From Reinekea forsetii (GTDB lineage: Bacteria; Pseudomonadota; Gammaproteobacteria; Pseudomonadales; Natronospirillaceae): a DNA stretch of 64,000 nucleotides. Shown in pieces: positions 1,536 to 24,416 of this stretch. The stretch is from the NCBI RefSeq assembly GCF_018860385.1, contig NZ_JAHKPH010000014.1:406487-470486 (forward strand). The letters run 5' to 3'. The notes under the pieces were generated by a model. It was not told where the DNA came from. It was given only the letters and a program-made list of their open reading frames with translations, and made no database searches. Positions within the stretch are counted from its first letter, which is position 1. Every line of letters starts with the position of its first letter. A program made the translations under genes and the position numbers.

Positions 1536-1856
1536 ATGACTGTGTTAATAAGTAATCTTGAGCTAGTACCTGGTAAGAAAATCGTTCAGCATTTAGGGTT
1601 GGTACAGGGCAGTACGGTACGTGCGAAACATGTTGGGCGTGACATTATGGCTGGCTTTAAAAACGTCTTTGGTGGAGAGTTAAAAGGTTACACGGAGCTA
1701 TTAGAAGACTCTCGAGAAGAAGCTCTACTGCGCATAAAACAGCAAGCCGAAGCATTAGGCGCAAATGCCATTATTAATATTCGGTTCTCGACCTCTTCGG
1801 TCGCTCAAGGCGCGTCTGAAATATTTGTCTACGGGTCTGCCGTTATCGTGGAGTAA
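1536..1856 (+). CDS. YbjQ/UPF0145 family protein (soluble copy)
   Basis: A 106-residue protein of the YbjQ family (PF01906). The typical features are the N-terminal LVPGKKIVQHLGLVQGSTV strand region, the central GGELKGYTELLEDSREEAL and the C-terminal AEALGANAIINIRFSTSS with a late YGSAVIVE strand. The biochemical role of this family is not settled; members have been called heavy-metal-binding or pentameric stress proteins. No membrane segment is seen. It lies 25 bases after the second PspB-like gene and four bases before a second YbjQ-like gene. Confidence 0.88.
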   Translation: MTVLISNLELVPGKKIVQHLGLVQGSTVRAKHVGRDIMAGFKNVFGGELKGYTELLEDSREEALLRIKQQAEALGANAIINIRFSTSSVAQGASEIFVYGSAVIVE

Positions 1857-1860
1857 GAGG

Positions 1861-2313
1861 ATGGACTTTTATTTTACTCTGGGCAGCTTTGTCGTTTTTA
1901 TGGTGCTGGGATATATCTTCGGGAGCCTTGCTGAACGGAGACATTATAAATCGATCCAAGAACGAGAAGAACGCTATCGAAACATTGTTGTTATCGCCCA
2001 ACGTTTCCCTTTTGTGCCAAATGTTCGCCGCACGGTGCTGGTTACCGGCAGTGTTGTTATCTCCGTCGATTACTTTAAGCGTTTCGTAGCGACACTTAGA
2101 ATGCTAGTCGGTGGGCGATTAACCAGCTACGAAAGCCTGTTAGACAGAGCCCGACGCGAAGCCATATTACGCTTACAAGCCCAGGCCGATTTTTATCATT
2201 CTACTCAAGTTTATAATATCAAATTTGAAACCAGCTCAATCTCGAAGGGTGCAAAAGACCGAATTGGCAGTATTGAAGTGTTAGCTTATGGAACGGCGTT
2301 AATAACAGAATGA
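1861..2313 (+). CDS. membrane-anchored YbjQ-like protein
   Basis: A 150-residue protein with an N-terminal membrane helix (residues 3-22, FTLGSFVVFMVLGYIFGSL) joined to a diverged YbjQ domain. The domain is recognisable by GGRLTSYESLLDRARREAIL and a C-terminal AYGTALITE that parallels YGSAVIVE in the upstream gene. I chose the ATG at 1861 because GGAGTAAGAGG directly precedes it; longer readings would run back through the previous gene. It seems to be a tandem duplicate that gained a membrane anchor. Its stop overlaps the start of the M48 gene, so translation is probably coupled. Confidence 0.8.
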   Translation: MDFYFTLGSFVVFMVLGYIFGSLAERRHYKSIQEREERYRNIVVIAQRFPFVPNVRRTVLVTGSVVISVDYFKRFVATLRMLVGGRLTSYESLLDRARREAILRLQAQADFYHSTQVYNIKFETSSISKGAKDRIGSIEVLAYGTALITE

Positions 2314-3089
2314 TGCCTAACGAGAACCCTCGCATTCCAGAAGGGATCAATGTCAGCAAGAGCCACCCCATCAAAGACTTGTTGATGTTATCCTTTGGTG
2401 TGGCGGTTATTTTCACTTTAGTCACTCTAGCTCTATGGATGTCTCTTACCTTCTTAGTGCAATTTGTACCGCTGAGCTGGGAGAAACGTATTGCTGACCC
2501 CATAGTCGCTTCGATGGTAAAAGACTCCGATCAACAAGCTGAACTGCAAGTTCGTTTAGGTAGAATACTAGCTGTTATGGGTTATCACGGCGAAGCAGAG
2601 ATTCAACTCCACCTCATCAAGAGCCCAGAGGTGAACGCTTTTGCTACGTTAGGGGGCCACATTTTTATACTAACCGGCCTACTTGAGTCTATTGACTCAG
2701 ATATTGGATTAGACATGGTGATTGCCCATGAAGCTGCACATATTTTGCATCGAGACCCAATTCAAGCTGCATCAGGCATGCTAGGTGTCAGTTTAGCGAC
2801 CGCTATCATCACCGGGAATGGAAACTTTGCGCAAGCCAATGGTTTGATGTCGGTTGGCAATCAGGTGATTTTCTTAAACCACAGTCGAGCGCAAGAGAAA
2901 GCCGCCGACCAAGCCGCTTTAAATGCCCTTAAAACCATTTACAGTGAAGTTAACGGTGCTGAAGAATTGTTTGTGAAATTGTTAGAAAGCGATCACCAAG
3001 ATGTACCGGTTATATTTTCTAGCCACCCACACCCTCAAGCTCGAATAGACGCTATTCGCGCCATGACCACGGAAACACAGACTCAATGA
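2310..3089 (+). CDS. M48 family zinc metalloprotease, membrane anchored
   Basis: A 259-residue peptidase of family M48. The zinc-binding HEAAH is at residues 140-144 and the third ligand is probably Glu196 in QEKAADQAAL. One hydrophobic segment (about residues 27-50) precedes the catalytic domain, which most likely lies in the periplasm, so it resembles BepA/LoiP-like envelope proteases more than the multi-spanning HtpX. No lipobox or tetratricopeptide repeats are seen. It overlaps both neighbours by four bases (ATGA type), tying it to the YbjQ pair and the MATE gene. A role in envelope protein turnover is inferred. Confidence 0.88.
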   Translation: MMPNENPRIPEGINVSKSHPIKDLLMLSFGVAVIFTLVTLALWMSLTFLVQFVPLSWEKRIADPIVASMVKDSDQQAELQVRLGRILAVMGYHGEAEIQLHLIKSPEVNAFATLGGHIFILTGLLESIDSDIGLDMVIAHEAAHILHRDPIQAASGMLGVSLATAIITGNGNFAQANGLMSVGNQVIFLNHSRAQEKAADQAALNALKTIYSEVNGAEELFVKLLESDHQDVPVIFSSHPHPQARIDAIRAMTTETQTQ

Positions 3090-10665: not shown

Positions 10666-11334
10666 TTAGTCCTGCTTCATATCCTTACGGAGCTTCTCAA
10701 GAGCCTCATTAACGGCATCGTCTTTGGCTAATGAATCGATTTCAGTTTTTAGATCTACTTTGGCATCCCGGCCTAAATCATCGGCTTCTATTTGGCTTTC
10801 CATTGTATCCATTCGACGCTCATAATGCTCGAACTTCTCAAATGCATCCGTCAGCTGCTCACGACTTAATTGGCCACGTGTGCGCATACGAGTAGAAACC
10901 GTCTTTTGTCGCATTAACAAGCCTTTCTGTTTGGCTTTCGCATCGTTCAATTTTTGTTGTAATTGAGCGATTTCTTCCGATAAATGGGCTAAATGATCGT
11001 CTAGTGAATCAAATTCCTTTTCGACCATAATGACTTCGTCATCGATCGATTGCTTTTCAGCAATTGCAGCGCGGGCAAGGTCTTCTCGGTTTTTATCTAA
11101 GGCTAATCGTGCTTTAGACTCCCAATCGAGCGCTTCTGATTTTAAGCGATTTAAGCGACGTTCGGCGTCTTTTTTATCAGCGATGACGCGTGCAGAGCTT
11201 GAGCGCACTTCAACTAAAGTTTCTTCCATTTCTTGAATTATCAAGCGAATCATTTTTTCAGGATCTTCCGCTCGATCTAATAACGAGTTGAGGTTGCTGT
11301 TTATGATATCGCTAAGTCTTGAAAATATTCCCAT
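10666..11334 (-). CDS. pspA: phage shock protein A
   Basis: A 222-residue peripheral membrane protein of the PspA/IM30/ESCRT-III family, almost wholly coiled coil. It binds and protects the inner membrane and inhibits PspF when stress is absent. The N-terminus MGIFSRLSDIINSNLNSLL is the amphipathic membrane-binding helix, and DRAEDPEKMIRLIIQEMEE is the family hallmark. Length matches E. coli PspA. It is preceded on the same strand by a 49-codon gene at 11375-11524. Confidence 0.96.
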   Translation of the reverse strand: MGIFSRLSDIINSNLNSLLDRAEDPEKMIRLIIQEMEETLVEVRSSSARVIADKKDAERRLNRLKSEALDWESKARLALDKNREDLARAAIAEKQSIDDEVIMVEKEFDSLDDHLAHLSEEIAQLQQKLNDAKAKQKGLLMRQKTVSTRMRTRGQLSREQLTDAFEKFEHYERRMDTMESQIEADDLGRDAKVDLKTEIDSLAKDDAVNEALEKLRKDMKQD

Positions 11335-16853: not shown

Positions 16854-17981
16854 TTAGGCATCAGATTTAGGATCGAACAGGCTACGACCTTCAGATGGCG
16901 CTGTATTGACAACAGGTTCTGCAGGTTTAGCCGCTGGTGCTGGTGCACTGATAGGTGCCGCCGGAACACTAGGCTTTACAACAGGTGCCGGAGCAGCGGC
17001 AGGTTTCACTTGAACGCTCGGCTTTTCAACTTTCTTCACTGGTGCTTTTTTAGCTGGCGCCTTCTTAGCGGCTTTTTTAACGGCAGGCTTTTTAGTTGCT
17101 GTCGCTTTTTTAGCCGCAGGCTTCTTAGTTGCAGCCTTTTTAGGAGCGGCTTTCTTCGCAGCAGGCTTTTTAGCGACTGTTTTTTTAGCGGCAGCTTTCT
17201 TTACTGTGGCTTTTTTAGCCGATGTCTTTTTAGACGTTGCCGTTTTTGCCGTGGCTTTTTTAGCAGCAGGTTTCTTAGCTTTTGCTTTTTTCGCTGCAGC
17301 AGCTGCTTTAGCTTTCGCCTTCTTTAAGGCTAATTTCTCTTTCTCTTTAGCTTTCTTCTCAGCGGCTTTGGCTTTCTTTTCAGCGGCAGCGGCGGCTTTT
17401 TTCTCTGCGGCGGCTTTCTTCTTCGCTTCTGCAGCGGCTTTTTTAGCAGCCGCTTTTTCTGCAACCTTACGTGCAGCTTCTTCAGCCTTTCTTAAAGCAG
17501 CTACGCCTTTTTGATACTGATCGGCAAGTTTTTGTTCAAATTTGTGTGCGGCTAAGGTTTCTTTAGCGGCTGATAATTCATCTTTTAGAGTTGCAACAGT
17601 GGCTTTCGCAGCTGCAACAGCTTCAGCTGCTTTCGCAGTCGCTGCTTTACCTGCTGGTGTTTTCTTAGCCGCTGCTTTTGCTTTCTTCGCAGTCGCCGCT
17701 TTTACTTTAGCGGTTGCCGCTGTCAGTTTTTTGGTGAGTTGGGCCACTTCTTTATCGGCTGCTTTTAATTCTTTTTCCTGCTCTTTCGCTATCTGAGCTT
17801 CAAGCTTTAGTAAGTCTTTGTTCAATTGATCGACAACTGAAACCGCTTTTTTCTGAGCGGGTGCTTTCTTAGCGACAGTTTTTTTAACAGCTTTTTTGGC
17901 TGTTGTTTTTTTCGCAGTTGCTTTTTTAGCAACCTTTTTTGGAGCAGGTTTTTTTACAGCTTTCTTTTTAGTGGCAGCCAT
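16854..17981 (-). CDS. Lys/Ala-rich histone-H1-like protein, AlgP-like
   Basis: A 375-residue, highly basic low-complexity protein. Residues 1-45 and about 230-310 are arrays of KKA/KPAAKK-type repeats like eukaryotic H1 tails. The middle (about 50-215) is an Ala-rich coiled coil. The last 55 residues are Pro/Ala-rich and end in an acidic tip SLFDPKSDA. AlgP of Pseudomonas has KPAA repeats and, as I remember, lies next to the ABC-F gene, which supports the match. DNA binding and compaction are inferred. The long open frames on the opposite strand are by-products of the repeats. Confidence 0.75.
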
Positions 17982-20370: not shown

Positions 20371-22152
20371 TTGTATCGTCAAAGTTTAATAGTGTGGGTC
20401 TGTTTTTTGTTCGTGATACCATTTTCTAGCGCCACTGAGTTTAAAATCAGTAGCGAAGATCTTGTATCCGGTCAAAAAATCGAATTAATTGGCGAATGGT
20501 GGTTTGAGTTTGGTGAGCACCTTTCGCCCGAAGCCCTTACTTCAGCAATTAATCAAAATAGTCTGATTAAAGTACCAAGCCCCGCTAGTTGGCATGACTT
20601 TTTAGACCAAGACAAAGCTAACCCTAGCCTACATGGTATTGCAACCTACGCCGCTCGAATAAGCTTCGATAGCCTTCCCGATGAACCTTACAGTGTCGCT
20701 GTGCCGTTTATTAATGATGCTTATCGAATTATGTGGATGCCATTTGGGCAACCAGAACAAGCGATGGTTATTGGTGAATCCGGCGATTGGCAAGTGGGTA
20801 TGATCAACTCCCGCGAAGACTTACTTTACCCGCTGCCCTCGCTAAAAGATGCACTATTAGTGATTTATGTTGCTAAAACGCAGTCTTTTCCAGGTGGCAT
20901 TCGAGAACCTATCGCATTGCAAAACACGATCGATGCTCAAAATATGAGAGACCTAACCAGCTTTACACGGGCATTGATGATGGGCGCAATTTTGATCATG
21001 AGTATTCACTATATGGTGCAATACTTTCACTGGCGAAATAACATCAGCCTATTAATTCTTTCGCTCATTTGTTTGGTTATGTTTGTTCGCTCATTGGGCG
21101 TTTCAGGTTATACCGATTTAATCTTGTCTTACTTTACGCCACATCATTTTGTTATTCGCCTTCGCCTTGAATATTTGTCTATTATTGTCGGTCCGCCCTT
21201 GTTTTGGCACTTTATTCAATCGCTGTTAAACGAATACCTCTCTAAACGATTTATTATTTCGATTTGGGTTTACACACTCACGTTCGCAACCTTAGCTATG
21301 ACTATTCCGTTTTATCTAATGACTAAGTACTTGCTGCTTATTCAGCTTCATTTAGGGATAATTTCGGTGCTTGTGTTTTATAGTCTCCTTGTTCCTGTTC
21401 TGCGCGGAGAGCCCTTTGCTCGCTTAATGTTAGCTGGCACAGGCATCATTGTGGTGGGCGTATTAAATGACCTTTTTGCGTCAGTATCAGACACCTACCA
21501 TATTTATCTGATTGAATTTTTTGGCTTTCTATTCTTAATTTTCCAGGCGCAATTGGTGGGAATAAAACTGAATGAGACAGTTAATTTAGCCGCGCGCCTT
21601 AAATCGGAAAAGCAAAAGCTCGAACATAAACACGACCGCGTCGTTTTAGAAGGACAGTTGGATCACCTTACCGGTCTCTATAACCGTAAAGCATTTTCTG
21701 AGTTGTTTAGCCTAACTTGGCAAAGCGCAATGATTAGCCAAGAAACCGTCAGCATCATCATTATGGATTTAGATCACTTTAAGGAAATTAACGATACTCA
21801 TGGTCATTTAATCGGTGATGAAGTTCTGGTTTATACAGCTTCTTTATTACGCAGTCAGAATCTACGCAAAGGAGATTTTATCAGTCGCTATGGCGGTGAA
21901 GAGTTTGTTGTTGTATTACCCGATACCCATTTAGAAGATGCCTACAATATTGCTCAAAACCTTCGCAAAGCAATTGCCTACGGCCCTGCCTATCAAGATG
22001 AACAGATCTCCTTGACGATAACAGCCAGTTTAGGGGTATACGCCACCATTCCCAAAGAGGAAAACTATCAACACGCTCTTGCTAAAGCAGACGAAGCTTT
22101 ATACAAAGCTAAGGATAACGGGCGCAACTGTGTGGTCAGCCTTATTAACTAA
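20371..22152 (+). CDS. 7TMR-DISM diguanylate cyclase
   Basis: A 593-residue membrane protein that should make cyclic di-GMP. A signal peptide (residues 1-22) is followed by a periplasmic DISM-type sensing domain (about 25-185), seven membrane helices (about 195-400), a short coiled coil, and a GGDEF domain. The active site is GGEEF at residues 508-512. The inhibitory I-site RKGD lies five residues before it, so product feedback is likely. The start is a TTG with GAGGAG six bases upstream. Its stop overlaps the convergent LemA-type gene by four bases. Confidence 0.88.
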   Translation: MYRQSLIVWVCFLFVIPFSSATEFKISSEDLVSGQKIELIGEWWFEFGEHLSPEALTSAINQNSLIKVPSPASWHDFLDQDKANPSLHGIATYAARISFDSLPDEPYSVAVPFINDAYRIMWMPFGQPEQAMVIGESGDWQVGMINSREDLLYPLPSLKDALLVIYVAKTQSFPGGIREPIALQNTIDAQNMRDLTSFTRALMMGAILIMSIHYMVQYFHWRNNISLLILSLICLVMFVRSLGVSGYTDLILSYFTPHHFVIRLRLEYLSIIVGPPLFWHFIQSLLNEYLSKRFIISIWVYTLTFATLAMTIPFYLMTKYLLLIQLHLGIISVLVFYSLLVPVLRGEPFARLMLAGTGIIVVGVLNDLFASVSDTYHIYLIEFFGFLFLIFQAQLVGIKLNETVNLAARLKSEKQKLEHKHDRVVLEGQLDHLTGLYNRKAFSELFSLTWQSAMISQETVSIIIMDLDHFKEINDTHGHLIGDEVLVYTASLLRSQNLRKGDFISRYGGEEFVVVLPDTHLEDAYNIAQNLRKAIAYGPAYQDEQISLTITASLGVYATIPKEENYQHALAKADEALYKAKDNGRNCVVSLIN

Positions 22153-24317
22153 CTCATTTGGAATGGCGCCGATGGTTTAAATGCAAAGAGTTTGGCTAAG
22201 AATACGTCCGGTAATTTTTCGATTTGATTGTTATACAGCATTACCGCATCGTTATAACCTTGGCGAATCAAGGCTAACTCGTCCTCTGCTTCGCTCATTT
22301 GTTGCATAATTAATTCGATAGGCTTATTGGCTTTTAAATCTGGGTATTGTTCTACCAACGCCAAAAGTGAGTGCTTGGCCGCGTTTTGAGTCTTCAACTG
22401 AGTTTCTGCTTCAACTACGGATTCTCCTACGGGAGTTACTTGAGATCTTGCATTAACCAATTGCTTCATTACGTCGGATTCGTGCGATAAGTAAGCACTG
22501 ACAATTTCAGCCAAGCGAGGAAAAAGATCGGCTCTTTTTTGTAACAAGGTATCAATATCAGCCGCGGTCTTATGAATTCTTTGCCTTAAAAAAACCAAAC
22601 CGTTGTAGTGCATTATCACAGTGATACCCAACAATATAGCAGGGACAACGAGGGAAACCTTCAGAAGATCGAGCGGACTAAAGTTACTTTGCAAGGTTAG
22701 CCACATGGTAGCGGCCACAATCCCAAACATCAGCGCAAAACCCGTCAGTAAAAAACCATTCACGCCTTTGCCTAGAATCACTTGTTGTTCAGTTTTTGCA
22801 GAGATTAGAAACTTCATCTCTTTATTTGGGTCTTCCGCTAATATGAGCTGGCCTGCTGTTTCGGTATCGATTCGTGCAAAACCTAAGCAATAAAGTTGTG
22901 CGCCTGTCGCCAACCATTTTTCGGTGTAGCGGCGAGATCCTTTTTGTTCAACTTTTTGATCGGAGTACTCAATATTAGCTTCATTAGGATTAACTCGAAC
23001 GCGCCCAAGTTCGTCTTTTAGCGAAAATGACACACGTTCCGCACCAGATTCAATTTCAACCCATTTTTGGTTTTTGCCAGTGCCTTGTTTTTGTTCTATG
23101 CAGTATTCATAGGCAAAACATTCTTGCTGATTAAGTGGGCTAGTCAGAGCATGGGTGTGAGTCTTAGCTTGACCATTTAATTCGGCTAATCCATAGCTTA
23201 GGCCGGTTGTTTTGGAAGTTGGAATAAATTCAACTAAGCGCTTAAAACGTATGGCTTTTAGTGCAGAGCCAATAAACACCAAACAAATAATGGCACCGAC
23301 TATAGCAAGTAGAGAGCCTAACCAAACCGGTTTTAAACGGCTGAAATCACGTACCAGTGCGGCTTCTTGGAGTTGTTGCTGCTCTTGCTGTGACCAAACA
23401 TTTGGTTGAGTTTTAGTGTCAAAAAAACTAGAAAACAATGCACTGTCTGGCCAGCCTTGAGCGCTTTGTTCAATGCGTACAAAATATTGATACAAGTCTT
23501 GCTCAGCACTTTTGTTATTTGGTTGATGTAAGACCCCTTCGGATCTTAATGAATACAACTGCTCAGCACTTTGCCAATCTATTTGCACCCAGTGCAATCC
23601 AAGATAGGAAAATGCACCCATGAGTCCCAGTGTCATAGAAACAACAAATACCCAAAAACGATGAACCGCAAAGCTCGACAGCAGCAATGCAAAGCCAATC
23701 GCCAATGCGCCAGCCGATGCGCTGAGTATTAAGCTAATGCCTAACAAAGACTGACCTGTAGATTCGTTTAGCGCGTCGTTGGTTACGAATTTTGGGAGAG
23801 TCATATTTGATTGCAACTCGAGGGTTTGGTTTTCAGAACCGTAGGTGCCCGTCAACTGAATAGCATCACCCGTACGCAAGGTCTGTTCTGTATAGGTTAA
23901 GTCCCCTTTTTTATATTGGTAGGTTTGCGGGGCAATAAAACGAATATCCGATAACCTAAAACCGGGGTCAACTTGGACCTGCGCTGTGTTGTCTTGAATA
24001 AAGAATGGAGTCGCACTTTTACCGCTTTCTAACGTTCTGGTTTGTTGATTCCCGTCCGAGTCCGTATAGGTTTCTGTAAGCACATAGTGGTAATACACAA
24101 CCGCATCATCAGAATAGGGCGCAATAATGCTAGTAGCCTTATTTGTGATAGTACCCGACACTAAATATTCGCCTTTGGTCAATGCTGACAAAGGCGAAAC
24201 CGGCAAACGATCGAGCTGACGGACATCAGCCAGTTTGGAAAAGCCCACTGTAAAACCCAAAAGGGCTAACCCCATTAAACACAAAGCGATGCAAAAATAC
24301 GCAATTCGACGTACCAC
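22149..24317 (-). CDS. double GIDE-like domain and LemA fusion membrane protein
   Basis: A 722-residue protein, an unusual fusion. A membrane helix (about 6-26) is followed by a first GIDE/BAM-like domain (about 45-180: GEYLVSGTITNKA, VVYYHYVLTE, LRTGDAIQLTG), then membrane helices near 190-245 and 335-360. A second GIDE-like domain spans about 375-520 (ECFAYEYCIEQ, GARLYCLG-type region), then two membrane helices. A C-terminal LemA domain follows (about 580-710: LRQRIHKTAADIDTLLQKR, DLFPRLAEIVSAYL). The start is a GTG with AAGGAG six bases upstream. Domain calls are from memory of the families; the function is unknown but fits membrane stress or envelope maintenance. Confidence 0.75.
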   Translation of the reverse strand: MVRRIAYFCIALCLMGLALLGFTVGFSKLADVRQLDRLPVSPLSALTKGEYLVSGTITNKATSIIAPYSDDAVVYYHYVLTETYTDSDGNQQTRTLESGKSATPFFIQDNTAQVQVDPGFRLSDIRFIAPQTYQYKKGDLTYTEQTLRTGDAIQLTGTYGSENQTLELQSNMTLPKFVTNDALNESTGQSLLGISLILSASAGALAIGFALLLSSFAVHRFWVFVVSMTLGLMGAFSYLGLHWVQIDWQSAEQLYSLRSEGVLHQPNNKSAEQDLYQYFVRIEQSAQGWPDSALFSSFFDTKTQPNVWSQQEQQQLQEAALVRDFSRLKPVWLGSLLAIVGAIICLVFIGSALKAIRFKRLVEFIPTSKTTGLSYGLAELNGQAKTHTHALTSPLNQQECFAYEYCIEQKQGTGKNQKWVEIESGAERVSFSLKDELGRVRVNPNEANIEYSDQKVEQKGSRRYTEKWLATGAQLYCLGFARIDTETAGQLILAEDPNKEMKFLISAKTEQQVILGKGVNGFLLTGFALMFGIVAATMWLTLQSNFSPLDLLKVSLVVPAILLGITVIMHYNGLVFLRQRIHKTAADIDTLLQKRADLFPRLAEIVSAYLSHESDVMKQLVNARSQVTPVGESVVEAETQLKTQNAAKHSLLALVEQYPDLKANKPIELIMQQMSEAEDELALIRQGYNDAVMLYNNQIEKLPDVFLAKLFAFKPSAPFQMS

Positions 24318-24416
24318 TAAAATCTCCTTTTAATGAGCCTGATCAATAGATTCACTGGCCTGTTGGTTAAATTTCCTTACACTACACGGCAACCATGAAT
24401 CTGAATAGGATCCAGC

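Follow-up and report, generated by a model that had tools for sequence, protein, structure and literature searches.

A 64,000-nucleotide stretch of the Reinekea forsetii genome (assembly GCF_018860385.1, contig NZ_JAHKPH010000014.1; the whole stretch is called the window here) encodes a membrane protein in which two GIDE domains are followed by a C-terminal LemA domain. The gene for this GIDE-GIDE-LemA fusion (positions 22149..24317) runs on the minus strand from a GTG start codon at 24317 to the stop codon at 22149-22151, and its product has 722 amino acids; a preliminary description of the window, made from the sequence alone, had given this span exactly and had left the strand unstated. The component families are already known. 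Genome comparisons suggest that the protein is a covalent form of a LemA-GIDE pair, which other Gammaproteobacteria encode in two adjacent genes, and an alternative to the pairing of LemA with an M48 protease. Regarding its role, which we infer, we consider it probable that the fusion, as a LemA-GIDE pair in one polypeptide, serves as an inner-membrane scaffold or sensor.

Domain composition of the fusion protein

Compared with Pfam as a whole, the protein scored 59.5 bits with the GIDE model (PF12483) and 115.9 bits with the LemA model (PF04011, residues 586-721); the curated cut-offs are 23.6 and 26.2 bits, respectively. When the parts were scored separately, each GIDE copy passed the cut-off, the N-terminal half with 25.3 bits (residues 87-178) and the middle part with 42.6 bits (residues 410-533). 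Profile searches thus find GIDE in both halves of the protein, and the two GIDE-like sections and the C-terminal LemA domain of the preliminary description are borne out. No RING or other ligase domain was found in the protein with Pfam.

The two GIDE-like parts are homologous to each other: hhalign aligned the GIDE-1 and GIDE-2 profiles over 145 columns with a probability of 99.7% (E 1.1e-26), while neither the control with a reversed profile nor any of the 20 with shuffled columns exceeded 0.4%. Because of this match and its controls, the two copies are, judged by their profiles, a real duplication. Since the first 330 residues of a Reinekea orthologue (L083) alone fall short of the Pfam GIDE model at E 1, GIDE-1 is, in sequence terms, at the edge of this model, and its assignment relies on the comparison of the two profiles. 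GIDE-1 comprises residues 36-188 (23754..24212; this and all following parts of the gene are on the minus strand) and GIDE-2 residues 355-526 (22740..23255). GIDE-2 contains the invariant residues K359, R360 and E363 in a KRLxExxPTS motif directly after the fourth membrane helix. The LemA domain (residues 572-722, 22152..22604) matches the Thermotoga maritima protein TM0961 (2ETD) in a phmmer search with E 2.5e-26.

lemA is neighboured by a GIDE gene or by an M48 peptidase gene

The GIDE family (PF12483) was located in 274 gammaproteobacterial genomes, which yielded 62 places in 60 genomes (a second copy inside a fusion was not counted). At 51 of these places the GIDE gene immediately follows lemA in the same orientation, and two more were resolved as such on inspection (53/62). 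Three of the remaining places are fusions and six are not tied to lemA; the latter comprise one contig break, two weak matches missed by our own model, and three genes that are apparently alone. Where a standalone lemA gene has no GIDE beside it, its neighbour is almost always an HtpX-like M48 gene, and no standalone lemA locus has both GIDE and M48 next door. In a phylogenetic tree, GIDE-neighboured and M48-neighboured lemA genes form separate LemA clades. The genome from which the window is taken carries lemA and M48 side by side on another contig.

The lemA-GIDE pairs (for example L076, L079 and L163) have the same two domain families as the fusion in adjacent position, with GIDE and LemA predicted to be cytoplasmic, like GIDE-2 and LemA of the fusion. 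They differ from it in that they consist of two separate genes, lemA first, with a single GIDE, whereas the fusion is one gene with two GIDE domains. In addition, a canonical calcium loop of the EF-hand type (such as DTNGDGKI) follows the GIDE match in several of the standalone GIDE proteins encoded next to lemA (L076:6155-7042, L079:6010-6936, L163:5684-6589 and others); this loop is absent from every fusion.

Among 39 genomes encoding the fusion, 36 lack a standalone GIDE. The other three, Aliikangiella and two Ectothiorhodospira, also carry the lemA-GIDE pair, so that fusion and pair can coexist; a strict replacement of the pair by the fusion was therefore rejected. Nearly every fusion genome contains an additional standalone lemA.

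The fusion forms one LemA clade across at least six phyla

To survey the architecture beyond the window, 84,980 genomes were scanned with an alignment-based profile; a scan of genome contigs with a single protein as query had given no matches. The profile scan found 76 loci, nearly all with full-length GIDE-GIDE-LemA, and the architecture is present in about 70 genomes from at least six phyla. Carriers are Marinobacter, Saccharospirillum, Reinekea, Hahella, Halospina, Aliikangiella, Ectothiorhodospira and Desulfobotulus, as well as a myxococcotal metagenome-assembled genome (MAG) and members of the Verrucomicrobiota, Planctomycetota (Phycisphaerae) and Lentisphaerota. In plasmid records no full-length copy of the fusion was found.

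The LemA domains of the fusions form a single branch in comparison to all standalone LemA proteins, including those of the pair type (Shimodaira-Hasegawa-like approximate likelihood ratio test, 100); the tree comes from a short search, and support within the fusion clade is low. This fits a single origin followed by horizontal spread. The only seemingly standalone row in the fusion branch is a MAG fusion with an in-frame stop. In this MAG, from the Planctomycetota (L142:11530-11600), an in-frame TAA, which may be a sequencing error or a real interruption, lies between GIDE-2 and LemA, where its relatives read through; an ancestral split into GIDE-GIDE and lemA was considered for this locus and rejected, as the apparent split reflects the in-frame TAA. 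A tree of GIDE domains separates GIDE-1, GIDE-2 and the standalone GIDE proteins into three groups, with GIDE-2 closer to the standalone proteins than GIDE-1 is. One relative (L016/L073, G013) has lost GIDE-1 and keeps the helices, GIDE-2 and LemA.

Fusions of the PVC group carry a domain of the LemA-linked M48 peptidase

In the Planctomycetes-Verrucomicrobia-Chlamydiae (PVC) group, many verrucomicrobial and lentisphaeral fusions are longer (1037-1115 amino acids), with 250-318 extra residues after LemA (L127, L132, L115, L120, L133, L148, L124, L125 and L144). This extension was compared by hhalign with the M48 peptidase that is linked to LemA, and it matched the C-terminal domain of the peptidase over 231 columns with 99.8% probability (E 2.3e-29), versus 0.3% for the catalytic domain; reversed and shuffled controls stayed below 1%. 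The peptidase domain itself, about 290 amino acids long (L081:7805-9814, in the genome of the window), is matched by no Pfam or NCBIfam model. Because GIDE, LemA and the M48 C-terminal domain share a single chain, they likely belong to a common system. The lemA-M48 pair and the fusion both place LemA with a membrane partner and have this C-terminal domain in common in the PVC group; the fusion differs in having neither a protease domain nor an M48 gene of the LemA-linked type alongside. Most of the extended fusions (L115, L120, L127, L132, L133 and L148) also have an N-terminal zinc-finger-like motif, CxxC...H...C, with a weak UBZ-type match.

Predicted structure and membrane topology

An AlphaFold2 model of the fusion, based on 49 alignment rows, reached a mean predicted local distance difference test score (pLDDT) of 90.4 and a predicted template modelling score of 0.83. 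The several membrane helices noted earlier amount to six in this high-confidence model (residues 2-37, 183-215, 221-263, 331-364, 510-542 and 550-609), with two strand-rich domains between them. The LemA part resembles TM0961 (Foldseek template modelling score 0.87 by target; VIA Z 17.3, root mean square deviation 1.9 over 139 residues), and the protein thus has both a LemA score above the curated cut-off and the helical-bundle fold of the family. For the GIDE-1 region of the model, VIA returned OB-fold (oligonucleotide/oligosaccharide-binding fold) domains at Z of about 9-10 in a match list consisting largely of OB folds; GIDE-2, modelled alone with a pLDDT of 91.7, gave OB-fold matches at Z 5-8. 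A Foldseek comparison of the GIDE-2 model with the PDB yielded no significant match, and none was obtained when PDB sequences were searched with a GIDE profile. Two PVC fusions show a weak Pfam OB-fold match. Together, the modest Z values of 5-10 after VIA re-ranking and these weak matches suggest with moderate certainty that the GIDE domain is OB-fold-like, each copy being a putative barrel.

The following arrangement is based on family hydropathy, charged flanks and the model. Membrane helix 1 comprises residues 4-24 (24246..24308). Helices 2 and 3 (residues 192-215 and 221-243, 23589..23744) form a hairpin with a short, K/R-bearing turn that is predicted to be cytoplasmic, and are followed by a weakly conserved, probably periplasmic helical linker (residues 245-330, 23328..23585) and by helix 4 (residues 331-354, 23256..23327). 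Helices 5 and 6 (residues 517-541 and 548-573, 22599..22769) form a second hairpin with its turn predicted outside, and helix 6 runs on into the first LemA helix.

To assign the sides of the membrane, the mean number of lysines and arginines in 15-residue flanks was determined for 73 orthologues and read according to the positive-inside rule. It amounts to 3.45 in the flank preceding helix 1 and to 3.40 and 3.62 in those following helices 4 and 6, respectively, compared with 0.1-0.2 in the turn between helices 5 and 6; the turn between helices 2 and 3 has about one K/R and almost no acidic residues. Because of these values, the N-terminus, GIDE-2 and LemA are predicted to be cytoplasmic and GIDE-1 periplasmic. 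Standalone LemA proteins (n=68) have 0.43 such residues before and 2.06 after their membrane helix, and standalone GIDE proteins (n=34) have 2.53 and 3.32 on the domain side versus 0.32 and 0.56 outside; since the bias sits on the domain side, both kinds of domain are predicted to be cytoplasmic as well.

A proposed role and its alternatives

In the scaffold or sensor that we propose, the six helices would anchor the protein in the inner membrane and the GIDE-1 barrel would bind a ligand or partner on the periplasmic face. Through the helical linker and helices 2-4, GIDE-1 would be connected with GIDE-2 and the LemA bundle at the cytoplasmic side of the membrane, where these two may gather membrane proteins or arrange them; elsewhere, LemA is instead found in operons with an HtpX-like M48 protease as its partner. 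From this arrangement we infer a sensing and organising role, and its output is suggested to be either membrane-protein quality control, given the M48 link, or membrane organisation as for MamQ and MAPL. Magnetosome membranes require the LemA family member MamQ to form normally, and MamQ has been proposed to act as a hub (PMC4902198).

Several points weigh against this proposal. No neighbour of the fusion is conserved beyond closely related genera, so none names a pathway. The parallel with MamQ concerns a single, specialised member of the family, and the fusion, of which the LemA part alone matches the MamQ equivalog model NF040966, scores far below the cut-off of this model (76.3 versus 250 bits). 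OB-fold matches are evidence of fold and not of function. The predicted membrane sides derive from the positive-inside rule as their one basis, and one paper places the LemA domain outside (PMC3905215), a placement that our charge data speak against.

Among the alternatives, the protein could be an adaptor of membrane proteases, in which GIDE binds damaged membrane proteins and LemA, in the PVC group together with the M48-type C-terminal domain, passes them to HtpX- or FtsH-type proteases encoded elsewhere. The genomic pairing of LemA with HtpX-like M48 genes, the peptidase domain at the end of the PVC fusions and the further standalone lemA in fusion genomes, M48-linked in R. forsetii itself, argue for this; however, no M48 gene of the LemA-linked kind is found near any fusion, and the local exclusion between GIDE and M48 partners also fits two separate systems; we consider an adaptor rather unlikely. 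Slightly lower still we rate a role in membrane remodelling or vesicle formation, in which LemA would organise patches of membrane, a function proposed for MamQ, and GIDE would act as in MAPL. Mitochondria-derived vesicles carry MAPL as cargo, and the BAM domain of MAPL lies on the side of the intermembrane space (PMC4457424), which matches the predicted position of GIDE-1, but both this comparison and that with MamQ draw on specialised relatives. That the fusion is a bacterial E3 ubiquitin ligase is suggested by the Pfam title of the GIDE family, 'E3 Ubiquitin ligase', and is contradicted by the absence of the catalytic RING from the protein; prokaryotic BAM/GIDE proteins have no RING (PMC4457424), and we give this reading practically no credence.

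The preliminary description had pointed to envelope-stress gene networks that include LemA, GIDE, PspA, YbjQ and M48 proteins, and the last three are all present elsewhere in the window: PspA (10666-11334), two YbjQ (1542-2301) and an M48 peptidase (2310-3089) are encoded about 11-21 kb from the fusion, and the window also encodes PspF. A component of a phage-shock or envelope-stress response acting with these genes would also agree with psp genes, including PspA, within 10 kb of the fusion in two other Reinekea species. Yet among about 75 loci no PspA was found at this distance outside Reinekea, YbjQ and M48 occur together near the fusion in one MAG (L112) only, and the lack of conserved neighbours applies here, too. 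Moreover, a 2024 survey of phage-shock-protein systems names neither LemA nor GIDE (PMC11237479). The fusion does not show the conserved linkage to PspA that would mark a member of the phage-shock system, and we take the proximity of the PspA, YbjQ and M48 genes of the window as chance; we consider the phage-shock reading quite improbable. Of the suggested network, the M48 link to LemA is real, on the separate evidence of lemA-M48 adjacency and the PVC fusion C-termini, and the link to PspA and YbjQ comes down to an unconserved co-occurrence in the window.

Surroundings of the gene and further observations in the window

A putative ribosome-binding site, AGGAG (24324..24328, minus strand), was read from the sequence 6 bases 5' of the GTG codon, and the GTG start lines up with the starts of the Reinekea orthologues. 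No sigma-70 promoter or terminator signal was found around the gene start. The divergent neighbour is pdxJ, a name read from the sequence, and at its 3' end the fusion gene overlaps by 4 bases with the end of a convergent 7TMR-DISM/GGDEF gene. At 1536-3089 of the window, YbjQ, a YbjQ-like protein with an N-terminal extension and M48 are encoded in a row; a Luminiphilus MAG has a similar cluster close to its fusion (L112 1742-3021). A lysine- and alanine-rich, histone H1-like protein of 375 amino acids is encoded at 16854-17981 (HC2, under the Pfam cut-off).

Relation to known systems and significance

In its domain score, its helix arrangement and the membrane helix that runs into the first bundle helix, the fusion agrees with the LemA family as represented by TM0961 and MamQ; whereas the usual LemA is a single-helix protein of about 200 amino acids, the fusion has five further helices and two predicted barrels before LemA and belongs to a LemA clade of its own. 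In MAPL (MULAN, MUL1) two membrane helices flank the BAM/GIDE domain, which in the human protein lies in the intermembrane space (PMC4457424), and the placement of GIDE-1 predicted from charge flanks would be equivalent. The fusion differs from MAPL in lacking RING, in a second GIDE domain predicted on the opposite face and in the presence of LemA. What the BAM/GIDE domain of MAPL did ancestrally has been described as an open question (PMC4457424), and as of 2016 MamQ was the only LemA member linked to a cellular process (PMC4902198). Our literature search found no paper joining LemA with GIDE; nor did it find the fusion architecture, its cross-phylum clade, the lemA-GIDE pair, the GIDE/M48 alternation or the M48 C-terminal domain in fusions, although subscription papers and InterPro-type databases were outside this search and an earlier mention is possible.

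Tentatively, and with less than even confidence, these comparisons may be read more broadly: LemA would be part of a modular inner-membrane system in which its partner is an HtpX-like M48 protease in some cases and an OB-fold-like GIDE protein in others. The two-faced fusion would represent this system in self-contained form and connect a sensor barrel in the periplasm with a second barrel in the cytoplasm, and the GIDE-LemA pair of bacteria would show the ancestral setting of the MAPL/MUL1 BAM domain.

LemA is widespread in bacteria and archaea. The fusion and the genes neighbouring LemA elsewhere point to a partner system for it, and the topology of the fusion would also reveal the membrane side on which LemA works. 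Since the fusion and the gene pairs tie two orphan families, LemA and GIDE, to each other and to HtpX-like proteases, the role of LemA and of bacterial GIDE becomes approachable in cultivable marine bacteria such as Marinobacter, Reinekea and Saccharospirillum.

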